From Ferrovibrio terrae (GTDB lineage: Bacteria > Pseudomonadota > Alphaproteobacteria > Ferrovibrionales > Ferrovibrionaceae), in contig NZ_CP041636.1 in NCBI RefSeq assembly GCF_007197755.1, positions 3,508,001 through 3,572,000 on the forward strand: a stretch of DNA of 64,000 nt. The letters run 5' to 3'. Positions 11,599 through 22,133 of the stretch are shown in pieces (position 1 is the stretch's first letter; every line of letters begins with the position of its first letter). The translations under genes and the position numbers were made by a program. The notes beneath the pieces were generated by a model that saw only the letters and a list, made by a program, of their open reading frames with translations, was not told where the DNA came from and ran no database searches.

Positions 11599-12477
11599 AT
11601 GCGCGTCACACTGCTTGGTACCGGCTGCCCTCAGGTTTCCACACGCCGCTATGGCCCGGCCTCTTTGCTGCGCACCGCGACGCGGCAGTTCCTGATCGAT
11701 TGCGGCTCCGGTGTGACGCAGCGCCTGCTGGCGGCGGGTACATCCGGCAAGCAGATCGATGCCGTGCTACTGACGCATCTGCATTCCGACCATATCGTCG
11801 ACCTGTTCCAGCTGATCATCTCGAGCTGGCATCAAGGCCGTGACCGGCCGCAGCACATCTTCGGTCCGGTCGGCACGCGGCAATATCTGAAAGGCCTGAT
11901 GGCCCTGTGGAAGCCCGAGTTAGATCAGCGCATCGCGCATGAAAAGCGGCCGTCCACCATCGCACTGGAACTTGAGGTCACGGAAGTAGAGCCCGGCCGG
12001 ATCATCCAGGATGGCGGCCTCTCGGTGATCGCCGTGCCGGTGCGGCACCAGCCGGTGAAAGCCGCCTTCGGCTATGTCTTCGCTGACAGCAAACACAAGG
12101 TGGCGTTCAGTGGTGATACGGCCTATTGCCCCGAACTGATCCAGGCAGCGAAAGACGCCGATGCCCTGGTGCATGAATGCTTCCTCCACCGCGAAATGCT
12201 GGCCCTGCCCGGCCGCTCGCCGGAGACGCTCGCCAATGTCGCCAGTTACCACACGCTGTCGACCGAGGTCGGCAAAGTGGCCGGGCAGGCGCATGCTGCC
12301 TGCCTGATCCTCAACCATTTCGTGCCGGTCGAGTTCGATCCTGCCGCGCTCATGTCCGAGGTCCGTGCCGACTATGCCGGCCCGGTGCTCGTCGGCGAGG
12401 ACCTGATGGAATTCGACGCTGCCACTCGTGTGGTCAGCCACGCCAACGGAAGCATTGCCCTGCCCCTCGCCACCTGA
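11599..12477 (+). CDS. Metallo-beta-lactamase-fold hydrolase (RNase Z-like)
   Basis: A 292-residue cytoplasmic protein with the dinuclear-zinc motif LTHLHSDHIVDLF (about residues 57-69), AFSGDTAYCPEL with a metal-ligand Asp, and LNHFVPVEF near the end. The start LLGTGCPQVSTRRYGPA resembles the ElaC/RNase Z and arylsulfatase branch of the superfamily. The typical tRNA-binding exosite of RNase Z was not identified, so a tRNA 3'-end role is uncertain and a small-molecule esterase is equally possible. It follows moeA by two bases and is probably in the same transcript. Confidence 0.85.
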   Translation: MRVTLLGTGCPQVSTRRYGPASLLRTATRQFLIDCGSGVTQRLLAAGTSGKQIDAVLLTHLHSDHIVDLFQLIISSWHQGRDRPQHIFGPVGTRQYLKGLMALWKPELDQRIAHEKRPSTIALELEVTEVEPGRIIQDGGLSVIAVPVRHQPVKAAFGYVFADSKHKVAFSGDTAYCPELIQAAKDADALVHECFLHREMLALPGRSPETLANVASYHTLSTEVGKVAGQAHAACLILNHFVPVEFDPAALMSEVRADYAGPVLVGEDLMEFDAATRVVSHANGSIALPLAT

Positions 12478-12531: not shown

Positions 12532-13761
12532 ATGCCCGTCGCCTGGCGCATCCTGTTCTGCGCCTGCCTCAGTTATACGATCAGCCAGTTCTACCGCTCG
12601 GCCAACGCCGTGATCGGGCCAGACCTGATGGTCGAGCTGGCGCTGACGCCGGAAGACCTCGGCATCCTGACCGGCGCTTTCTTCCTCACCTTCTCGATCA
12701 GCCAGTTTCCCGTCGGCATCGCGCTCGATCGCTGGGGACCGCGCCGCACCATCCTGGTTACGCTGGTGATCGCCCTGATCGGTGCATTGGCTTTCGCCTT
12801 CGGTCGCAACCTCACGGAACTGACTCTGGCGCGTATCGTGCTGGGCTTTGGCTGTGCCGCGCTGCTGACCGGCCCGATGGTGCTGTTTTCGCGCTGGTTC
12901 CCGCCGGATCGCTTCGCCACCATGTCCAGCATCCTGATTGCAGTCGGGAATATTGGTGTTATCGCCTCCACTGCCCCGCTGGCCTGGCTTGCAGAGGCTT
13001 ATGGCTGGCGCTCGGCTTTCTTTATCACGGCGGCGATTACCGTCTGCCTGATTGCCCTGTCCTTCTGGGCCATCGAAGATCATCCCGATCCGGCCAAGGC
13101 GCGCAGCGGCGCCAATGAAAGCCTGGCAGAAACCCTGCGTGGCATCGGTGCCGTGATCCGCCACCCTGCTTTCCCGAACCTGTTCGTCATCATCGCCTCA
13201 GCCTATGCCACTTTCATCACCATCATCGGCCTGTGGGGTGGCCCCTATCTGCATGATGTCCATGGCATGGATGCGGCCGCGCGCGGCAATGTGCTGATCT
13301 TCATGGCCGCAGGCGCGGCTGCTGGTTATTTCATCTGGGGTCCGCTGGATCGCGTGTTCAACACGCGCAAATGGCTGCTGGCCGTCGGGTTGGGCAGCCA
13401 GCTCGCCTGCCTGCTGGTGATCATCCTGGTGCCGGGCCTGAGCGTGTTCGTGATCACCGCGCTGTTCTGCTTCATGGGCGTGATGAACGGCTGCATCGTG
13501 ATGATCTTTGCGCATGCACGCTCGGTCTTCCCGGCTGCGCTGATCGGTCGCGGTATCACAACGCTGAACATCGGCACCATGGGCGGCGGTGCCTTCCAGC
13601 AGTTCCTCACCGGCTGGCTGATGGGCCGCATGGCGCCGAAAGGCACCGTGCCGACCGAACTGGATTACCGCATCATCTTCGGTGTGCAGTTCACCATCCT
13701 GCTCGCGGCGCTGCTGTTCTATCTGCGTACGCCGGATGCCAAACCGCATGAAGCGGCATGA
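12532..13761 (+). CDS. MFS transporter
   Basis: A 409-residue inner-membrane permease with about twelve hydrophobic segments in two halves. The major facilitator motif GIALDRWGPRRTI lies between TM2 and TM3, and NVLIFMAAGAAAGYFIWG starts the second half. The family moves small solutes by proton coupling; the substrate cannot be read from the sequence. Its stop overlaps the start of the ureidoglycolate-lyase-like gene by ATGA, which in turn overlaps the ligase gene, so the three probably handle one compound. A carboxylate is an inference from the ligase. Confidence 0.88.
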   Translation: MPVAWRILFCACLSYTISQFYRSANAVIGPDLMVELALTPEDLGILTGAFFLTFSISQFPVGIALDRWGPRRTILVTLVIALIGALAFAFGRNLTELTLARIVLGFGCAALLTGPMVLFSRWFPPDRFATMSSILIAVGNIGVIASTAPLAWLAEAYGWRSAFFITAAITVCLIALSFWAIEDHPDPAKARSGANESLAETLRGIGAVIRHPAFPNLFVIIASAYATFITIIGLWGGPYLHDVHGMDAAARGNVLIFMAAGAAAGYFIWGPLDRVFNTRKWLLAVGLGSQLACLLVIILVPGLSVFVITALFCFMGVMNGCIVMIFAHARSVFPAALIGRGITTLNIGTMGGGAFQQFLTGWLMGRMAPKGTVPTELDYRIIFGVQFTILLAALLFYLRTPDAKPHEAA

Positions 13762-14291
13762 CGGCCGGACAGCCCCTTCGTATTGAGCCGATCAGCGAGG
13801 CAGCTGTAACCCCTTTCGGCTGGATGCTGGGCAAACCGCTGCCGTCCGCGACTGACGCCACGGCCTTTGCCAGCCCGGCCTCAGATTTCTGGCACGAGCA
13901 TGTCTTCAACGCCGGCGATGGCGGCGAGCCCGAAATTCTGTGGGTGACATACCGGTCCGACGACCCGGCCGTGACCCGACTGGAGGTTCATCACCTGACG
14001 CAGCAGGCTGTGGTTCCGGTTATCGGCAGCATCGTGCAAATTGTGGCCGCCAGCGACGCAGCGGGTGAACCCGACCTCAGCACTGTGCGCGCCTTTACCA
14101 TCACCCCCGGGCAGGGCCTCTGCATGCGGCCCGGCATCTGGCATGCTACGCGGTCCGTGGGTGGGGAATCCACCTGCCTGATGCTGACACGAGGATCCAC
14201 CACGATTGATCTGGTGCGCCATCTCAACCAGGGTGCTGCGGTCGAAGAGTCCCGCATGACTGATATCCCCCAATTGCACCTGGAGCGGTGA
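13758..14291 (+). CDS. Ureidoglycolate lyase (AllA)-family protein
   Basis: A 177-residue cupin-like protein. EPISEAAVTPFGWMLGKP at the start, RLEVHHLTQQAVVPV in the middle, and TPGQGLCMRPGIWHATRSVG match the layout of ureidoglycolate lyases, which split ureidoglycolate to glyoxylate and urea in allantoin catabolism. No other purine-catabolic gene is nearby, and the gene is sandwiched by overlap between a transporter and an acyl-CoA-synthetase-like ligase. The true substrate may therefore differ from ureidoglycolate. Confidence 0.75.
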   Translation: MTAGQPLRIEPISEAAVTPFGWMLGKPLPSATDATAFASPASDFWHEHVFNAGDGGEPEILWVTYRSDDPAVTRLEVHHLTQQAVVPVIGSIVQIVAASDAAGEPDLSTVRAFTITPGQGLCMRPGIWHATRSVGGESTCLMLTRGSTTIDLVRHLNQGAAVEESRMTDIPQLHLER

Positions 14292-15817
14292 TGACCGAGC
14301 CCGCGCCGTCCCGCTTCAATCTCGCGCGCTATTGCCTGGCGGAGAATGCTCGGCTGCGGCCGGACAAGACCGCGATGATCCTGGTCGGGGCGGATACCGA
14401 AGTCCGCATGAGCTTTGCCGAGGCCGATCTTGCCATTCGACGGCTGGCCGCCGGTTTGCAGAGCCTGGGCATGCCCCCGCAGAGCCGCATCATGATCCGC
14501 ATGGCCAATGATGCGGATTACGCGCTCACCTATTTCGCCACTATGGCGGCCGGCTATGTCGCGTTGCCGTCCAGCGCGCAACTGACCGCCAGCGAAGCCG
14601 CCTACCTGCTGGAGAATTCCGGCGCTGCCGCCGTCGCTGCCAGTGCTGAACTGGCGACAGACCTGAGTCTCCCCTCCGGCGTACTGCTGCTCGATCCGGC
14701 CAGGCTGCAACAGCTCAAGCAGTTCGCGCCACTGCCTGACTTCGCCGATACCGCGGCCGACGATCCGGCCTATCTGGTCTATACCTCGGGCACCACCGGA
14801 CGCCCCAAAGGCGTGCTACATGCGCACCGCGCGGCCTGGGGTCGACGTCCGATGCATCAGGGCTGGCTCGGCCTGCGCGACAGCGACGTGATGCTGCATG
14901 CCGGCGCCTTCAACTGGACATACACGCTGGGTGTCGGCATGGTCGATCCTTGGGCGGTCGGCGCCACGACCGTGCTGTATAACGGGCCGCGCGATATCCA
15001 GGTCTGGCCGCAACTGCTGGCGCGCTACCGCGCCACGATCTTTGCGGCCGTGCCGACGCTGTATCGCCAGATCCTGAAATACTGCGATCTCGACGCTTAC
15101 GACCTCTCGGCGCTGCGGCACGGCGCGACGGCGGGCGAAGCACTGCCGCCTGCGCTGCTGCAGGAATGGCAGGACCGCACCGGCAAGCCGATGTATGAGG
15201 CGCTCGGCATGTCGGAAATCTCCACCTACATCTCGACCGGCCCCGGCATGACGATCAAGCCGGGCAGCCCGGGTAAGCCGCAACCCGGCCGCCGCATCGC
15301 CATCCTGTCGCCAGACACCGACAGCACCACACCGCTGCCGCAGGGCGAAACCGGCTTGCTGGCGGTGCATCGCAGCGATCCGTCGATGATGCTCGGCTAC
15401 TGGCACCGCCCCGAGGAAGAGGCGCTGGTCTATCGCGGCGACTGGTTTTGCGGGGGCGATCTCGCCAGCCTTGATGCCGATGGCTATGTCTGGCATCACG
15501 GCCGCAACGACGACGTGATGAATGCCATGGGCTATCGCGTCTCCCCGGTCGAGGTCGAGATGGCGATGGCAGACCACCCGGCGATTGCCGAAGTCGCCGT
15601 GACCGAGATCAGGGTGCGCGCTGATGTTTCCGTCGTTGCCGCCTTCATCGTGCTGCGCGAAGGCATGACCGCCGAGCCGGTCGAACTCGGCCGGTTCGCC
15701 GAGAGTCGACTGGCGGCCTACAAATGCCCGCGCGAATGGCGCTTCGTCACCAACCTGCCCCGCACCGCCAATGGCAAGGTGCAGCGCAAGAAACTGGCTG
15801 ACATCAGTCCGAAATAA
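14288..15817 (+). CDS. AMP-dependent acyl-CoA synthetase / ligase
   Basis: A 509-residue adenylate-forming enzyme, expected to activate a carboxylic acid with ATP and join it to coenzyme A. Seen are the P-loop-like YLVYTSGTTGRPKGVLHAHR (about residues 163-182), YEALGMSEISTYISTGPG (the A5 region), GDWFCGGDLASLDADGY (A7) and HHGRNDDVMNAMGYRVSPVE (A8), plus the C-terminal catalytic lysine in RTANGKVQRKKL (A10). The pattern is nearest the benzoate/short-chain acyl-CoA ligase branch, but specificity is unknown. It overlaps the AllA-like gene by ATGA. Confidence 0.9.
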   Translation: MMTEPAPSRFNLARYCLAENARLRPDKTAMILVGADTEVRMSFAEADLAIRRLAAGLQSLGMPPQSRIMIRMANDADYALTYFATMAAGYVALPSSAQLTASEAAYLLENSGAAAVAASAELATDLSLPSGVLLLDPARLQQLKQFAPLPDFADTAADDPAYLVYTSGTTGRPKGVLHAHRAAWGRRPMHQGWLGLRDSDVMLHAGAFNWTYTLGVGMVDPWAVGATTVLYNGPRDIQVWPQLLARYRATIFAAVPTLYRQILKYCDLDAYDLSALRHGATAGEALPPALLQEWQDRTGKPMYEALGMSEISTYISTGPGMTIKPGSPGKPQPGRRIAILSPDTDSTTPLPQGETGLLAVHRSDPSMMLGYWHRPEEEALVYRGDWFCGGDLASLDADGYVWHHGRNDDVMNAMGYRVSPVEVEMAMADHPAIAEVAVTEIRVRADVSVVAAFIVLREGMTAEPVELGRFAESRLAAYKCPREWRFVTNLPRTANGKVQRKKLADISPK

Positions 15818-15869
15818 TGTGGCATCGGCCTTGCAATTTACCCATCAGAGCAATCGATGGGGTTTTGTC

Positions 15870-16547
15870 ATGGGTACCATTGCCACCGCATCCGCCAAGG
15901 CCGTTTTCGGCGATCTGATGACCGCGCATCAGACACTGGCCAGCAACACGCCGGCCAAGGTCGCTGCTGCAAAATTCGCGGATTACCTTGAAGAAAAGCA
16001 GTCGGCCAACCGCCTGCCGAGCGTGTCGCCCGGCCAGCATCCGAGCCCTGAACTGCTTGGCAAGGTGCTGTTCGGCACTGCCTGGGACGCCGATACCAAG
16101 ACCATCCGGCTCGACAAAATTGCCGCCGATATCCAGAAGCGCACGGCAGAATTTGCCGGGCAGTTCAAACAGGCCCTGGCCAGCCACGGCATCGATCCCA
16201 ACATTCCGGTGGAACTGAGCACCGGCGGCGATGGCCGCATCATCGTCGACAACGGCCATCCCAACGCGGAAGAAATCAGCAAGCTGTTCGCCGCTGATCC
16301 CCAGCTGGCGCAGACCTATCGCGACGTGGCCGCCAGCAATGATCACCTGACCCTGATGCAGGCCGGTGCGGCCTATGTGAAGGACTGGAATGCCGCCAAG
16401 ACCGATGGCGAGCGCACGGCACTGTGGAACCGCTACAGCACGCTGATGGACAAGATGATCAGCATGTTCAGCAGTCGCATGACCTTCGGCCCCAGCACCG
16501 TCGTGGCCGAAAGCCAGCAGATGCTGCGCCGGATGGGCATATCGTAA
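15870..16547 (+). CDS. Hypothetical protein (225 aa)
   Basis: No family was recognised. The protein starts MGTIATASAKAVFGDLM, has no signal peptide or membrane helix, and is rich in Ala and short amphipathic helices, with a central Gly/Asp segment (ELSTGGDGRIIVDNGHP, about residues 115-131). The ATG at 15870 was chosen because GATGGGG precedes it; the longer open frame would run inside the ligase gene. It lies 52 bases after the ligase stop and ends 3 bases from the convergent SDR gene. It may be cotranscribed with the ligase unit, but its role is unknown. Confidence 0.75.
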   Translation: MGTIATASAKAVFGDLMTAHQTLASNTPAKVAAAKFADYLEEKQSANRLPSVSPGQHPSPELLGKVLFGTAWDADTKTIRLDKIAADIQKRTAEFAGQFKQALASHGIDPNIPVELSTGGDGRIIVDNGHPNAEEISKLFAADPQLAQTYRDVAASNDHLTLMQAGAAYVKDWNAAKTDGERTALWNRYSTLMDKMISMFSSRMTFGPSTVVAESQQMLRRMGIS

Positions 16548-16550
16548 GGC

Positions 16551-17312
16551 TTACGTTATCGACAGCCCGTCATCGGCGGCAATGATCGCGCCGTTGATGA
16601 AGCGCGCCTCGCCCGAGGCCAGCAGCAGGATCAGCCCGTCGAGGTCCTTCACATCGCCGACACGTCGGCGCGGCAGCATCTCGATCAGCTTCTGGCCCCC
16701 CGGCGTGGCCCAGTAGTCGCGGTTGATCTCGGTCTCGATATAACCGGGGCAGATCGCCGAGGTGTTGATCCCGTAGCGCGCCCATTCCAGCGCCATGGCC
16801 TTGGTCATATGCACCACGGCCGCCTTCGACATGCAGTAGACCGACAGCTGTCCCAGCACGCGCATGCCGGCGACAGATGCAATGTTGATGATACGGCCCT
16901 CGACCTTGCGGTCGATCATATCCTTCGCCGCCGCCTGGGCGACGAAGAAAGCGCCCTTGGTGTTGGTGTTCATATTAAAATCGTAGTCGTCCGGCGTGAC
17001 ATCGATGATACGGCCCTGCTTGCTGACGCCGGAATTGTTGATCAGGATATCGGTGCCGCCGAGCTTCTGCCGCACCTCGGCGAAAGCCGCCTGGATATTG
17101 TCGTAGTCATTCACATCCAGTTTCACGGTGATCGCCGTGCCGCCGGAAGCCGCAATCCGGTCGGCCAGGGACTGCAACCGGTCGGTCCGGCGGGCCGCCA
17201 AAGCGACGCTTGCCCCGGCCTCGCTCAGGATCTCGGCAAACCGTTCGCCCAGGCCGCTGCTGGCCCCGGTCACCACCGCCACTTTGCCCTTCAGACTGAT
17301 CCCGCTAGCCAT
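16551..17312 (-). CDS. SDR-family oxidoreductase
   Basis: A 253-residue classical short-chain dehydrogenase/reductase. It has the cofactor loop VVTGASSGLGERFAE, the NNSG motif (ILINNSGVSKQG), the catalytic Ser region INIASVAGM and the YCMSKAA active-site Tyr-Lys pair. AARRTDRLQSL after strand 2 suggests NADP(H) preference. The start at 17312 has a clear GGGAGG eight bases upstream; the longer frame to 17357 has none. The substrate is unknown. It is divergent from the DsbA-like gene. Confidence 0.92.
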   Translation of the reverse strand: MASGISLKGKVAVVTGASSGLGERFAEILSEAGASVALAARRTDRLQSLADRIAASGGTAITVKLDVNDYDNIQAAFAEVRQKLGGTDILINNSGVSKQGRIIDVTPDDYDFNMNTNTKGAFFVAQAAAKDMIDRKVEGRIINIASVAGMRVLGQLSVYCMSKAAVVHMTKAMALEWARYGINTSAICPGYIETEINRDYWATPGGQKLIEMLPRRRVGDVKDLDGLILLLASGEARFINGAIIAADDGLSIT

Positions 17313-17409
17313 CGAATCCTCCCAAGTTTTCCATTGCTTGAATGCTGGGCGGGCCACTGCCTTCGGTCAAGGGCTGGCCGGATCACCCGAGCTGCGCTAC
17401 CGTAACGGC

Positions 17410-18051
17410 ATGCGCATAGAAATTGTCTCCGACGTCATCTGCCCCTGGTGTTTCATCGGCAAGCGCCGCCTGGAACAGGCCATGGCGCAACGCCCGAACA
17501 TCACTTTCGAGATCGGCTGGCGGCCATTCCAGCTCAATCCGGATATGCCGCGCGAGGGCGCCGACCGCAAAAGCTATCTCGAAGCCAAGTTTGGCGGGCC
17601 GGAACGGGCCAAACAGATTTATGCCCGCGTCACTGCCGAAGGCGCCAAGGAAGGCATTGCCTTCAATTTCGACGGTATCAAGCGCACGCCCAACACCCTG
17701 GCCGCCCATAGCCTGCTGCGCTGGGCGCTGAAGGCCGGTGTTCAGACCGAACTCAAAGAGCGCCTGTTCAACTTCTATTTCATCCAGGGCCGGGATATCG
17801 GCGACCATCAGGTGCTGGCCGATGCGGCAAATCTTGAAGGCATGGATGGCGCGCTGGTGAAGCAGCTGCTGGATGAAGGCCGCGATGCCGAGGTCGTCCA
17901 GTCGGAGGACATGACGGCGCGCGAACTCGGCATTACCGGTGTGCCCTTCTTCATCTTTGAGGGTAAATACGGCGTCTCCGGCGCGCAGCCGCCGGAAGCA
18001 CTGCTGCAGGTGATCGACAAGGTCGCCGCCGAGCCCGCGGACGAGGCCTGA
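17410..18051 (+). CDS. DsbA/FrnE-family thioredoxin-fold oxidoreductase
   Basis: A 213-residue cytoplasmic thioredoxin-fold protein with inserted helical domain. The redox motif is CPWC (ICPWCFIGKRRLEQAM, residues ~12-27), followed by GWRPFQLNP and, near the end, LGITGVPFFIFEGKYGVSGAQ with the cis-Pro of the fold. This is the FrnE/2-hydroxychromene-2-carboxylate isomerase-like branch, whose members act as disulfide oxidoreductases or isomerases. No signal peptide is present. The ATG at 17410 gives the normal family start. A PAS gene follows after two bases. Confidence 0.9.
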   Translation: MRIEIVSDVICPWCFIGKRRLEQAMAQRPNITFEIGWRPFQLNPDMPREGADRKSYLEAKFGGPERAKQIYARVTAEGAKEGIAFNFDGIKRTPNTLAAHSLLRWALKAGVQTELKERLFNFYFIQGRDIGDHQVLADAANLEGMDGALVKQLLDEGRDAEVVQSEDMTARELGITGVPFFIFEGKYGVSGAQPPEALLQVIDKVAAEPADEA

Positions 18052-18587: not shown

Positions 18588-21500
18588 TCAGGCTTTCTTG
18601 ACGATCCGCGTCTTCGCCTTGGTGGCGATCTCGGCCAGCCGCAGCGAGGCATGCAGCACGCCTTTCAGGCGATCCTGCGGCTCTGGCCAGTCGCGCATCA
18701 GCACCACCTTGTGATCGGGCCGCAGCTTGGCGCCGCGTTCCGACTGGATGAACAGCACCAGCCCGGCCGGATCGGCAAAGGTGTTGTCGCGGAAGGTCAG
18801 CGTCGCACCCTTCGGGCCGGCCTCGATCTTCAGGATATTCGCTTCCAGGCAGAACTTCTTGATCGCCACAATGTCGAGCAGGTGGTGAACCTCTTCCGGC
18901 AATGGTCCAAATCGGTCGATCAGTTCGGCGGCGAAGGCATCGATATCGGTGCGGTTCTCCAGATCGGCGACACGGCGGTACAACTGCATGCGCAGGTTCA
19001 GGTCAGCGATATAGCTGTCCGGAATCAGCACGGCCGTACCGATCTGTATCTGCGGCGACCATTTCTCGCTCAGCGCGCTGACGTCGCCACGCGCCGCAGA
19101 ACGGGCTGCCGCAATCGCCTCCTGCAGCATCTCCTGATACAGCTCGAAACCGACTTCACGGATATGCCCGGACTGCTCCTCGCCCAGCAGATTGCCCGAG
19201 CCGCGCAGGTCGAGGTCATGTGACGCCAGACTGAAGCCCGCACCCAGGGTATCCAGGCTCTGCAGCACATGCAGGCGCTGCTCGGCTGACGTACTGAGCA
19301 GACGGCCGCCCTGATAGGTGAAATAGGAATAGGCGCGCAGCTTGGAACGGCCGACGCGACCGCGCAGCTGATACATCTGCGCCAGACCGAACAGGTCGGC
19401 GCGATAGACCACCAGCGTATTGGCCGACGGGATGTCGAGTCCGCTTTCGACGATATTAGTTGCCACCAGCACATCGTAGCGCCGGTCGTAGAAGGCGTTC
19501 ATCACGTCGTCCAGATCGGTCGGCGCCATCTGGCCATGCGCCACCACGGCTTTCAGTTCCGGCACATGATCGCGGATAAAAGCCATGGCCGTATCGAGAT
19601 ATTCGATGCGCGGACAGACGAAGAAGCTCTGGCCACCGCGGAAATGCTCGCGCAGCAGCGCCTCGCGGATCACCACGCCGTCGAAGGGCGTCACGAAGGT
19701 GCGCACCGCCAGACGATCGACCGGCGGGGTGGCGATCAGACTGAGTTCGCGCACGCCCGACAGCGCCAGCTGCAGCGTGCGCGGGATCGGCGTCGCCGAC
19801 ATGGTCAGCACATGCACTTCGGCCTTGATCTCTTTCAGCCGCTCCTTGTGCTTGACGCCGAAATGCTGCTCCTCATCGATAATCAGCAGACCGAGACGCT
19901 TGAAGTCGATACTCTTCGACAGCAGGGCATGCGTGCCGATCACGATATCGACCGTGCCGTCCGTCAGGCCGGCCTTGGTGTCTTTGGCCGACTTGGCCGT
20001 CACCATGCGGGACAGCTGCTCGATGCGCAGCGGCAAGCCACGGAAGCGCTCGAAGAAGGTGCGGTAATGCTGGCGGCACAGCAGCGTCGTCGGGCAGACC
20101 AGAGCCACCTGTTGTCCCGACATGGCGGCCGCAAAGGCCGCCCGCAACGCCACTTCGGTCTTGCCAAAACCGACATCGCCGCAGATCAGGCGATCCATCG
20201 GCTTGCCGCTGGAGAGGTCGTCCAGCGTCTCGTTGATGGCGCGTTCCTGGTCTTCGGTCTCTTCGTAGGGGAAGCGGGCGCAGAATTCCTCGTACAGGCC
20301 TTCCTGCGGAATTACGCGCTCACCCTGCCGCAGCTCGCGCTGGGCAGCGATCTTCATCAGCTCGCCGGCCATGTCCTTCAGGCGCTGTTTCATGCGCGCC
20401 TTGCGGTTCTGCCAGCCGACGCCGCCAAGCTTGTCCAGCGTCACGTCCGCTTCGGGCGAGCCGTAGCGCGACAGCATCTCGATATTCTCGACCGGCAGAT
20501 ACAGCCGGTCGCCGCCGTCGTAATGCAGCAGCAGGCAGTCATGCGGCGCGCCGGCCACATCCAGCGTCACCAGATCCTTGTACTGGCCGATGCCGTGATC
20601 GATATGCACGACATAGTCGCCCGGTTGCAGCGCGCTGGCCTCGGCGATGAAATTCTCCGCCCGGCGCTTCTTCTGGCGCGGCCGCACCAGACGGTCGCCC
20701 AGAATATCCTGCTCGGCCACCACGCAGAGATCGCCAGCCTCGAAACCATGCTCGATCGGCAGCACGGCAATGGCCGGCACCGCCTTCGGTACGGTCTCGA
20801 TATCGCGGGCCGTCTCGATGGCCTGCGGCATCGGCAGGCCATGGTCTTTCAGCACCAAGGCCAGACGGTCGCGCGCACCGACAGAGAAGGTGGCGAACAG
20901 GACCCGACGCCCCTGCCCGGTCTGCCTGGCGATATGGCCACCCAGCGCGTCATAAACGCTGACCACCGAAGCCTTCTTCTCAGCCGCCTGCGCTGCCTGG
21001 GTGCGTTCAGGGGCGAAGTCGCGGCCTGGCCGGGCATTCAGGTCGACCACCTTCACATCCGGGCCGCCGACAGCTTCGAACGGAAACAGCGCGCCGACCG
21101 GAAATTTCTCCAGCCGCGCCGTCCATTCGCCGGCCGTCAGATACAGCCGGTCCGGCGGCAGCGGTTTGTAAGGCGAACCGCCCTCTTCCAACCCGCGCTT
21201 CATCGCCGACTTGCGCGCATCGTAGTGATCGGCAATCGCCTTGAAGCGTTCATCGACCGCGTCGCCGGTCAGATGATCGAGCGTCACTGCTGCCTGCGGC
21301 AGGTATTCGAAAACGGTCGATAGCCGCTCGAAGAACAGCGGCAGCCAGTGTTCCATGCCGATCTGGCGCCGACCGGCCGATACCGCTTCATAGAGCGGGT
21401 CTTCCTTGGTGACGGTACCGAACAACTCGCGATAGCCACTGCGGAAACGCGCGATGGAGTCTTCATCCATCGGCACTTCGCTCATGGCTGTCAGCGACAG

Positions 21501-22133
21501 TTCGGTCACGGCGTCGATGGTGCGCTGGGTGGCCGGATCGAAACGGCGGATGTTCTCGACCTCGTCACCGAAGAAATCCAGCCGGTACGGCGCCTCGGTG
21601 CCCGGCGGGAACAGGTCGACCAGGCCGCCGCGCACGGCATACTCGCCGGGTTCGTTCACCGTGGAGACGCGGCTGTAGCCATTGCGGCCGAGATACCCGA
21701 TCAGCGTTTCCGGCTTCACCCGGCCGCCCTTGGCGGCGCGGAAGCCTGTGCCCTTGAACCAGTCCGGTTGCGGCAGACGCTGCAGCGCGGCGTTCACCGT
21801 GGTCAGCAGCAGCCATGGCACATCGGGCCGCTCGCCGGACAGGCGGTTCAGCGTGTCCATGCGCCGGGCGGCGATCTCGGCAATCGGCGAGACGCGGTCA
21901 TAAGGCTGGCAGTCCCAGGCTGGCAAGGTCAGCACCGGCAGATCGGGGGCAAAGAACTTCAGCGCCGCTTCCAGCGTCGCCATGCGCGCGTCGTCGCGGC
22001 AGACATGCAGAACGCCGCGGCCCTTCTGCCGCTGCGCCAGGGCAGCCAGCAGGCGCGCATCCTGCCCTTCCGGGCTGCCGGCCAATGCCCAGCGGCCCGG
22101 CCGGGTCAGAATATCCGGCAGCACAAAGGTCAT
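18588..22133 (-). CDS. mfd: Transcription-repair coupling factor
   Basis: Mfd displaces RNA polymerase stalled at DNA lesions and recruits UvrA. The 1181-residue protein has the UvrB-like N-terminal module, the RNA-polymerase-interacting domain (about residues 490-560, SALQPGDYVVHIDHGIGQY) and the RecG-like translocase. The translocase carries Walker A ICGDVGFGKTEVALRA, DEEQ box IIDEEQHFGVKHK, TATPIPRT, and QLRGRVGRS with the TRG region; a C-terminal inhibitory domain follows. Length is normal. It lies four bases after sdhE and is convergent with the PAS gene. Confidence 0.97.
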   Translation of the reverse strand: MTFVLPDILTRPGRWALAGSPEGQDARLLAALAQRQKGRGVLHVCRDDARMATLEAALKFFAPDLPVLTLPAWDCQPYDRVSPIAEIAARRMDTLNRLSGERPDVPWLLLTTVNAALQRLPQPDWFKGTGFRAAKGGRVKPETLIGYLGRNGYSRVSTVNEPGEYAVRGGLVDLFPPGTEAPYRLDFFGDEVENIRRFDPATQRTIDAVTELSLTAMSEVPMDEDSIARFRSGYRELFGTVTKEDPLYEAVSAGRRQIGMEHWLPLFFERLSTVFEYLPQAAVTLDHLTGDAVDERFKAIADHYDARKSAMKRGLEEGGSPYKPLPPDRLYLTAGEWTARLEKFPVGALFPFEAVGGPDVKVVDLNARPGRDFAPERTQAAQAAEKKASVVSVYDALGGHIARQTGQGRRVLFATFSVGARDRLALVLKDHGLPMPQAIETARDIETVPKAVPAIAVLPIEHGFEAGDLCVVAEQDILGDRLVRPRQKKRRAENFIAEASALQPGDYVVHIDHGIGQYKDLVTLDVAGAPHDCLLLHYDGGDRLYLPVENIEMLSRYGSPEADVTLDKLGGVGWQNRKARMKQRLKDMAGELMKIAAQRELRQGERVIPQEGLYEEFCARFPYEETEDQERAINETLDDLSSGKPMDRLICGDVGFGKTEVALRAAFAAAMSGQQVALVCPTTLLCRQHYRTFFERFRGLPLRIEQLSRMVTAKSAKDTKAGLTDGTVDIVIGTHALLSKSIDFKRLGLLIIDEEQHFGVKHKERLKEIKAEVHVLTMSATPIPRTLQLALSGVRELSLIATPPVDRLAVRTFVTPFDGVVIREALLREHFRGGQSFFVCPRIEYLDTAMAFIRDHVPELKAVVAHGQMAPTDLDDVMNAFYDRRYDVLVATNIVESGLDIPSANTLVVYRADLFGLAQMYQLRGRVGRSKLRAYSYFTYQGGRLLSTSAEQRLHVLQSLDTLGAGFSLASHDLDLRGSGNLLGEEQSGHIREVGFELYQEMLQEAIAAARSAARGDVSALSEKWSPQIQIGTAVLIPDSYIADLNLRMQLYRRVADLENRTDIDAFAAELIDRFGPLPEEVHHLLDIVAIKKFCLEANILKIEAGPKGATLTFRDNTFADPAGLVLFIQSERGAKLRPDHKVVLMRDWPEPQDRLKGVLHASLRLAEIATKAKTRIVKKA

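Follow-up and report, generated by a model that had tools for sequence, protein, structure and literature searches.

In a 64,000-nucleotide stretch of Ferrovibrio terrae DNA (referred to as the window), an MFS transporter gene and an acyl-CoA ligase gene (ACL) belong to a pair that recurs across the genus, and in some of the species a gene for an AllA-like protein lies between them. We consider it fairly probable that these genes make up a small import-and-trap operon, in which a carboxylate would be taken up by the MFS protein and made into a CoA ester by ACL. The AllA-like gene looks like a unit that was gained or lost at the coupled MFS/ACL junction. The finding is real but modest, and its useful part is the comparison of species with and without a member of a misnamed subfamily.

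Gene organization of the locus

Three co-directional genes of the families named by the original prediction were found where it had placed them (Table 1). All the Pfam matches were above cut-off: 166.3 bits for the MFS transporter with PF07690 (cut-off 33.4), 48.4 bits for the AllA-like protein with PF04115 (cut-off 23), and 235.9 and 57.5 bits for ACL with PF00501 and PF13193. The three genes had been said to overlap by ATGA. This held for MFS/AllA but not for AllA/ACL, which in the window is best read as a 1-nt TGATG overlap with ATG 14291 as the start of ACL. G010 and G012 share this conserved start (MTEP...); an alternative one, GTG 14288, would give a protein of 509 aa and a 4-nt AllA/ACL overlap. 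Thus the genes, the families and the place were confirmed, and the type of the second overlap was not. Synthesis of the three products in a fixed ratio, held very likely in the original prediction, may follow from the coupling.

Table 1. Features of the locus, in positions of the window.
Feature	Position	Strand	Family or remark
MFS transporter, 409 aa	12532..13761	+	PF07690; core partner of ACL
AllA-like protein, 177 aa, ureidoglycolate-lyase fold	13758..14291	+	PF04115; apparently an optional cassette
ATGA start/stop overlap MFS/AllA	13758..13761	+	sequence
ACL, ANL superfamily, benzoate-CoA-ligase-like, 508 aa	14291..15817	+	PF00501 + PF13193
Orphan protein, 225 aa	15870..16547	+	no Pfam family; neighbour, putative unit member only
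SDR oxidoreductase	16551..17357	-	NF005402, 378.9 bits (cut-off 358); apparent ancestral chromosomal neighbour of ACL
DsbA-like protein (presumed)	17407..18051	+	apparent ancestral neighbour of ACL
Mfd-like transcription-repair coupling factor (presumed)	18588..22133	-	apparent ancestral neighbour of ACL

The 225-aa protein was rightly called an orphan: it matched no Pfam family when scanned as the longer ORF 15771-16547. Its gene follows ACL after 52 nt and was found downstream of ACL in 5 of the 10 genus genomes, and a partial match (28%) was obtained in 1 of 239 other class genomes. The predicted structure, mostly helical and built from two sequences, is of low confidence (pLDDT 62). We take the product of the next gene but one to be DsbA-like, though it gave no NCBIfam match at E 1e-30, and that of the last gene of Table 1 to be Mfd. 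Just upstream, at 11599-12477, a metallo-beta-lactamase protein is encoded, for which the RNase Z and GntH models were the nearest, both below their cut-offs. A scan for promoters and terminators was uninformative (2 promoter-like sites against 1.7 expected). The genome of the window is a single contig of 4.26 Mb and contains one PF04115 match.

It may be noted that in GC-rich DNA the ORF caller overlooks genes lying beneath antisense ORFs, as for MFS in L049 and ACL in L063. The neighbourhood counts were accordingly taken from tblastn, and the Pfam scans of neighbour genes cover chosen representatives.

MFS and ACL as the stable pair

Ten genomes of the genus were compared. An MFS orthologue was found in all ten, with 64-98% identity (that of G011 being the most divergent, 64%), and ACL scored above the search threshold in nine; in G009 it is known from its 127-aa start only, at a contig end. 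MFS stood directly before ACL, with no AllA-like gene, in six genomes (G005, G006, G007, G008, G009, G013), and the AllA-like gene sat between the two in the other four (G000, G010, G012, G011). The expectation that the same three genes lie side by side elsewhere was therefore borne out in three further species.

Five of the six direct MFS/ACL junctions were 4-nt ATGA overlaps and the sixth was a 5-nt gap. With the AllA-like gene present, MFS and AllA overlapped by ATGA in three genomes (G000, G012, G011) and were 2 nt apart in G010. Between AllA and ACL, the overlap was TGATG in G000 and ATGA in G012, and the two genes were separated by 1 nt in G010 and by 6 nt in G011. Since the AllA-less junctions are themselves mostly ATGA overlaps, the AllA-like gene behaves as a cassette; a deletion between two ATGAC copies would yield the direct junction of G008. 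In the ACL tree, species with and without the AllA-like gene were interleaved, so that several events of gain or loss are needed. The AllA tree grouped G000, G010 and G012 (support 81/86) and left G011 unplaced.

Between G000 and G010, dN/dS was 0.035 for MFS, 0.069 for ACL and 0.18 for the AllA-like gene, at protein identities of 98%, 94% and 78%, respectively. MFS and ACL are strongly constrained, and the AllA-like gene less so.

An NhaP-type antiporter gene was present downstream of ACL in six of the ten genomes (L066, L067, L124, L125, L049, L126). It was missing from the stretch examined in G000, G010 and G008, and in G009 this stretch was cut.

Receptor genes upstream and relatives of the transporter

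Genes on the same strand as MFS and upstream of it encode receptors in several sister species. TRAP DctPQM lay just upstream in G008, G013 and G011, and a TctC protein was encoded upstream in G005, G006, G007 and G009; the receptor families were assigned by profile in L067 and L049 and by similarity in the remaining loci. G000 and G010 had neither TRAP nor TctC upstream, and no close DctP elsewhere in the genome. In G012, a TRAP receptor gene (93% identity) was found near the end of another contig, and the MFS gene of this genome is also at a contig end. TctC receptors bind carboxylates. TRAP binding proteins are, according to PMC4646407, confined to carboxylates through a conserved arginine.

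Among the five MFS loci examined outside the genus, a ligase gene was found in L131 only, where an MFS relative of about 42% identity has a CoA ligase and also a RutB-like hydrolase as neighbours. Another relative of about 42% identity (L132) adjoins genes for an acyl-CoA dehydrogenase, a CoA-transferase and a Rieske benzoate-dioxygenase-like protein. Other relatives (35-38%) adjoin M24 peptidase and creatininase genes and not ligases.

Family, pocket and older neighbourhood of ACL

ACL has the features of an ANL AMP-forming ligase, with intact core motifs and the A10 lysine (K496) present in 22 of 22 orthologues. Its nearest solved relative is benzoate-CoA ligase (6m2o/4rlf), with 253 bits over a full-length alignment, but the score of 288.9 for the benzoate-CoA ligase model TIGR02262 fell short of the cut-off of 375.25. 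The pocket segments NWTYTLG and EALGMSE, the latter followed by S-T-Y-x-S, were unchanged in all 22 orthologues; the second segment has one variable position, I310 (I, C, V or F), and the residue preceding NWTYTLG varies too. A single substrate, kept throughout the orthologues and other than plain benzoate, is likely for ACL. The pocket was identical in species with and without the AllA-like gene. Hence the substrate of ACL does not appear to depend on the AllA-like protein.

ACL matched at E 1e-140 or better in 20 of 289 class genomes. Near its distant orthologues (17 class loci) were found genes for SDR (12/17), Mfd (11/17), CoA-transferase III (11/17), a DsbA-like protein (9/17) and a BhcC-like PLP enzyme (3/17), and MFS in a single locus, that of the genus member G006. 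By gene context, ACL is older than the MFS-ACL unit and an old resident of the SDR/DsbA/Mfd neighbourhood. As it has other upstream partners elsewhere, its link to this MFS transporter may be recent. In the family-mate G004 (L130), an MFS gene (46%) and a BhcC-like gene occupy the same SDR/DsbA place, without ACL. For the Methylobacterium relatives of ACL, which come from unannotated records, no MFS or AllA neighbour was found. BhcC-like genes (3-hydroxy-D-aspartate aldolase family; L056 5996-7168, L130 5094-6185) take the place beside ACL or MFS in other genera.

Fold, residues and selection of the AllA-like protein

The AlphaFold model of the AllA-like protein had a pLDDT of 81.8. When it was searched with Foldseek, the five best matches were AllA-family structures (TM-score by query 0.67-0.71), with 1xsq, 1xsr, 2bdr and 1yqc among the top, which assigns it the AllA fold. 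E76, H78, Q83, W128 and H129 were invariant in 12 alignment rows that included two true-type AllA relatives. When mapped onto Glu97, His99 and His150 of DUF4867, residues E76, H78 and H129 would be those that bind metal. The gene is under purifying selection, with dN/dS of 0.18-0.26 in four pairs, and is therefore a real gene.

At E 1e-25, the subfamily was found in 2 of 385 class genomes and 2 of 398 phylum genomes, the query genome being counted in both. Judged by sequence, the AllA-like protein is a distinct and rare subfamily. In a Pseudorhizobium contig (L026 8001-8476), an AllA-like match was split over two frames, by decay or sequencing error.

The proposed operon and its alternatives

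In the import-and-trap operon, an organic acid would enter via the MFS protein, and ACL, translationally coupled to it, would turn the imported acid into a CoA thioester, so that it is kept in the cell and committed to breakdown. Both the direction of transport and the identity of the acid are what we infer. Four of the genus members have, inserted at the coupled junction, a cupin enzyme of the AllA family. This enzyme most likely would carry out a metal-dependent cleavage of the lyase type, serving either to convert an alternative imported compound to the acid for ACL or to clear a by-product; all that is said of its reaction is conditional. The presence of the MFS-ACL pair in all ten genomes, allowing for the AllA-like gene, and the TRAP and TctC receptors of the sister species support the uptake and CoA activation of a carboxylic acid, which had been part of the original prediction. 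It counts against the import-and-trap operon that it contains no genes for a downstream pathway, that the link of ACL to this MFS transporter may be recent, and that of the five MFS loci outside the genus L131 alone shows a ligase. The proposal is also weakened because MFS proteins can export, and this one reached no NCBIfam substrate subfamily, the 25 of 45 matches listed being all below their cut-offs.

The original prediction went further, in that MFS, the AllA-like protein and ACL would jointly degrade one amide- or ureido-carboxylic acid, the AllA-like protein making the cut that provides ACL with an acid to activate. We regard this as possible but unlikely. The triad does occur in four of ten genus genomes, one of which (G011) has the most divergent MFS, but the same MFS-ACL pair does without the AllA-like gene in the other six, with the same ACL pocket; the three genes are hence not one fixed enzyme set. 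For an amide or ureido substrate there was no more than a hint, from the genes near the subfamily outside the genus. Among 18 non-genus loci, an amidase gene was near in eight, a DUF2848 gene lay within 8 kb in eight, mostly with an amidase (L013, L014, L016, L018, L019, L069, L070, L071), and isochorismatase with molybdenum hydroxylase was found in two. Taken together, an amidase or isochorismatase-type hydrolase was near in 10 of 18 loci from three lineages. An amide link is thereby suggested for the AllA-like protein. These are raw counts with no background rate; amidases are common, and the unit itself contains none. The 18 loci also represent few lineages (Microvirga, Paraburkholderia/Caballeronia, Alcaligenaceae, Tardiphaga and single others), some on short contigs. 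None of them had an ACL orthologue near, and a 27% MFS match was found in one (L072). In two Alcaligenaceae loci (L022, L024), the AllA-like gene with its isochorismatase hydrolase and molybdenum-cofactor hydroxylase genes also lay near TctC and CoA-transferase III genes, and in L024 near an HMGL-like lyase gene as well. No mention of DUF2848 was found in the open-access literature, nor an open-access paper on ureidoglycolate lyase together with an MFS transporter and a CoA ligase.

It is unlikely that the MFS protein works as an exporter or drug pump and that ACL is a housekeeping ligase unrelated to it, belonging to the SDR-DsbA-Mfd neighbourhood, their overlap being chance packing. The weak similarity of the MFS protein to efflux models of NCBIfam would agree with this, as would the 16 of 17 class loci where that neighbourhood includes ACL but no MFS. 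However, the MFS-ACL adjacency and the 4-nt overlap persist genus-wide while the flanks change, with TRAP, TctC or nothing upstream and NhaP or the orphan gene downstream.

That the AllA-like protein is an ordinary ureidoglycolate lyase, producing glyoxylate and urea from purine breakdown and merely parked in the operon, is less possible than the joint route and, in our view, improbable. Its PF04115 match, the AllA fold and the retained metal-site residues are in its favour. But it missed every NCBIfam ureidoglycolate-lyase model by far (at best 40.9 against 160 bits for NF009932; 35.6 against 260 for NF002952), and the WHHP of AllA is WHATR here. A normal AllA with an allantoin cluster elsewhere, as considered in the original prediction, found no support. 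Allantoinase (TIGR03178) was above cut-off in none of the 10 genus genomes, the best match being 246 bits against 357.85, in the window's genome; weaker matches are expected from related cyclic amidohydrolases. Allantoicase (PF03561) matched in none of the ten either, though as the control search was silent too, its absence is unproven. Ordinary allantoin use was rejected on these searches. G006 has, moreover, a separate, better-scoring AllA (113 bits) inside a ureide-type cluster. The second AllA of G006, G013 and G009 was considered as the same gene and rejected, being a different and better-scoring AllA. In L073 (G006:C1:1394000-1409000), this true-type AllA comes after genes for a flavin monooxygenase and for a CoA ligase other than ACL, and downstream of it are a diaminopropionate-ammonia-lyase-like gene, an M20 peptidase, a CN-hydrolase and an AtzE-like amidase.

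Most speculatively, the AllA-like subfamily may be an unrecognised metal-dependent lyase of the amidoglycolate type, which would split N-acyl-alpha-hydroxy acids (R-CO-NH-CH(OH)-COOH, ureidoglycolate being an example) to give glyoxylate and an amide. The acid would then be freed by a hydrolase, either an amidase or one of the isochorismatase type, such as those in the neighbourhoods of Microvirga, Paraburkholderia and Achromobacter, to be taken up and activated by MFS-ACL in this genus. No open-access paper on a bacterial "amidoglycolate lyase" was found.

The name is of practical consequence. Two features on Burkholderiaceae plasmids that match the AllA-like protein are called ureidoglycolate lyase, and this database name suggests purine use where the genus searches found no allantoin genes. 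Closely related species that share the MFS-ACL pair but differ in whether they have the AllA-like gene offer a clean natural comparison, which makes the role of the subfamily testable by substrate screening.

Comparison with known systems

ACL resembles the BadA-type benzoate-CoA ligases (TIGR02262; 4rlf, 6m2o) as its nearest solved relatives and in its ANL core motifs. It differs from the R. palustris enzyme in the segments that, as we assume, line the benzoate pocket, where FFAYGLG is replaced by NWTYTLG and DGIGSTE by EALGMSE. The SauU-SauT pair for sulfoacetate consists of an MFS importer and an AMP-forming ligase. MFS-ACL is like it in gene types alone, an MFS gene beside that of an AMP-forming ligase, but no acylating aldehyde dehydrogenase neighbour was seen at this locus.

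The AllA-like protein shares with AllA (PF04115; E. coli AllA, 1xsq/1yqc) the fold and the E-x-H...Q and W-H residues. It differs by its low identity to the solved AllA structures (about 22%), by WHATR and by the subfamily-wide C122-M123, C140 and M142-L143. E. coli AllA is described in PMC3793230 as a Ni-dependent lyase. For DUF4867 (SqvB/SftX, sulfoglycolysis), a family related to AllA, PMC11968277 gives the metal ligands of the structure as Glu97, His99, Glu103 and His150, a 2His-2Glu site. The structural match to it was much weaker (9gyy, rank 11), and the setting here is that of a CoA ligase and not of a sugar pathway. Nevertheless, like DUF4867, the AllA-like protein is predicted to be an AllA-type cupin with a metal site, and the likeness extends to its gene being an accessory one, missing from some of the clusters, in which the principal steps already have an assignment.
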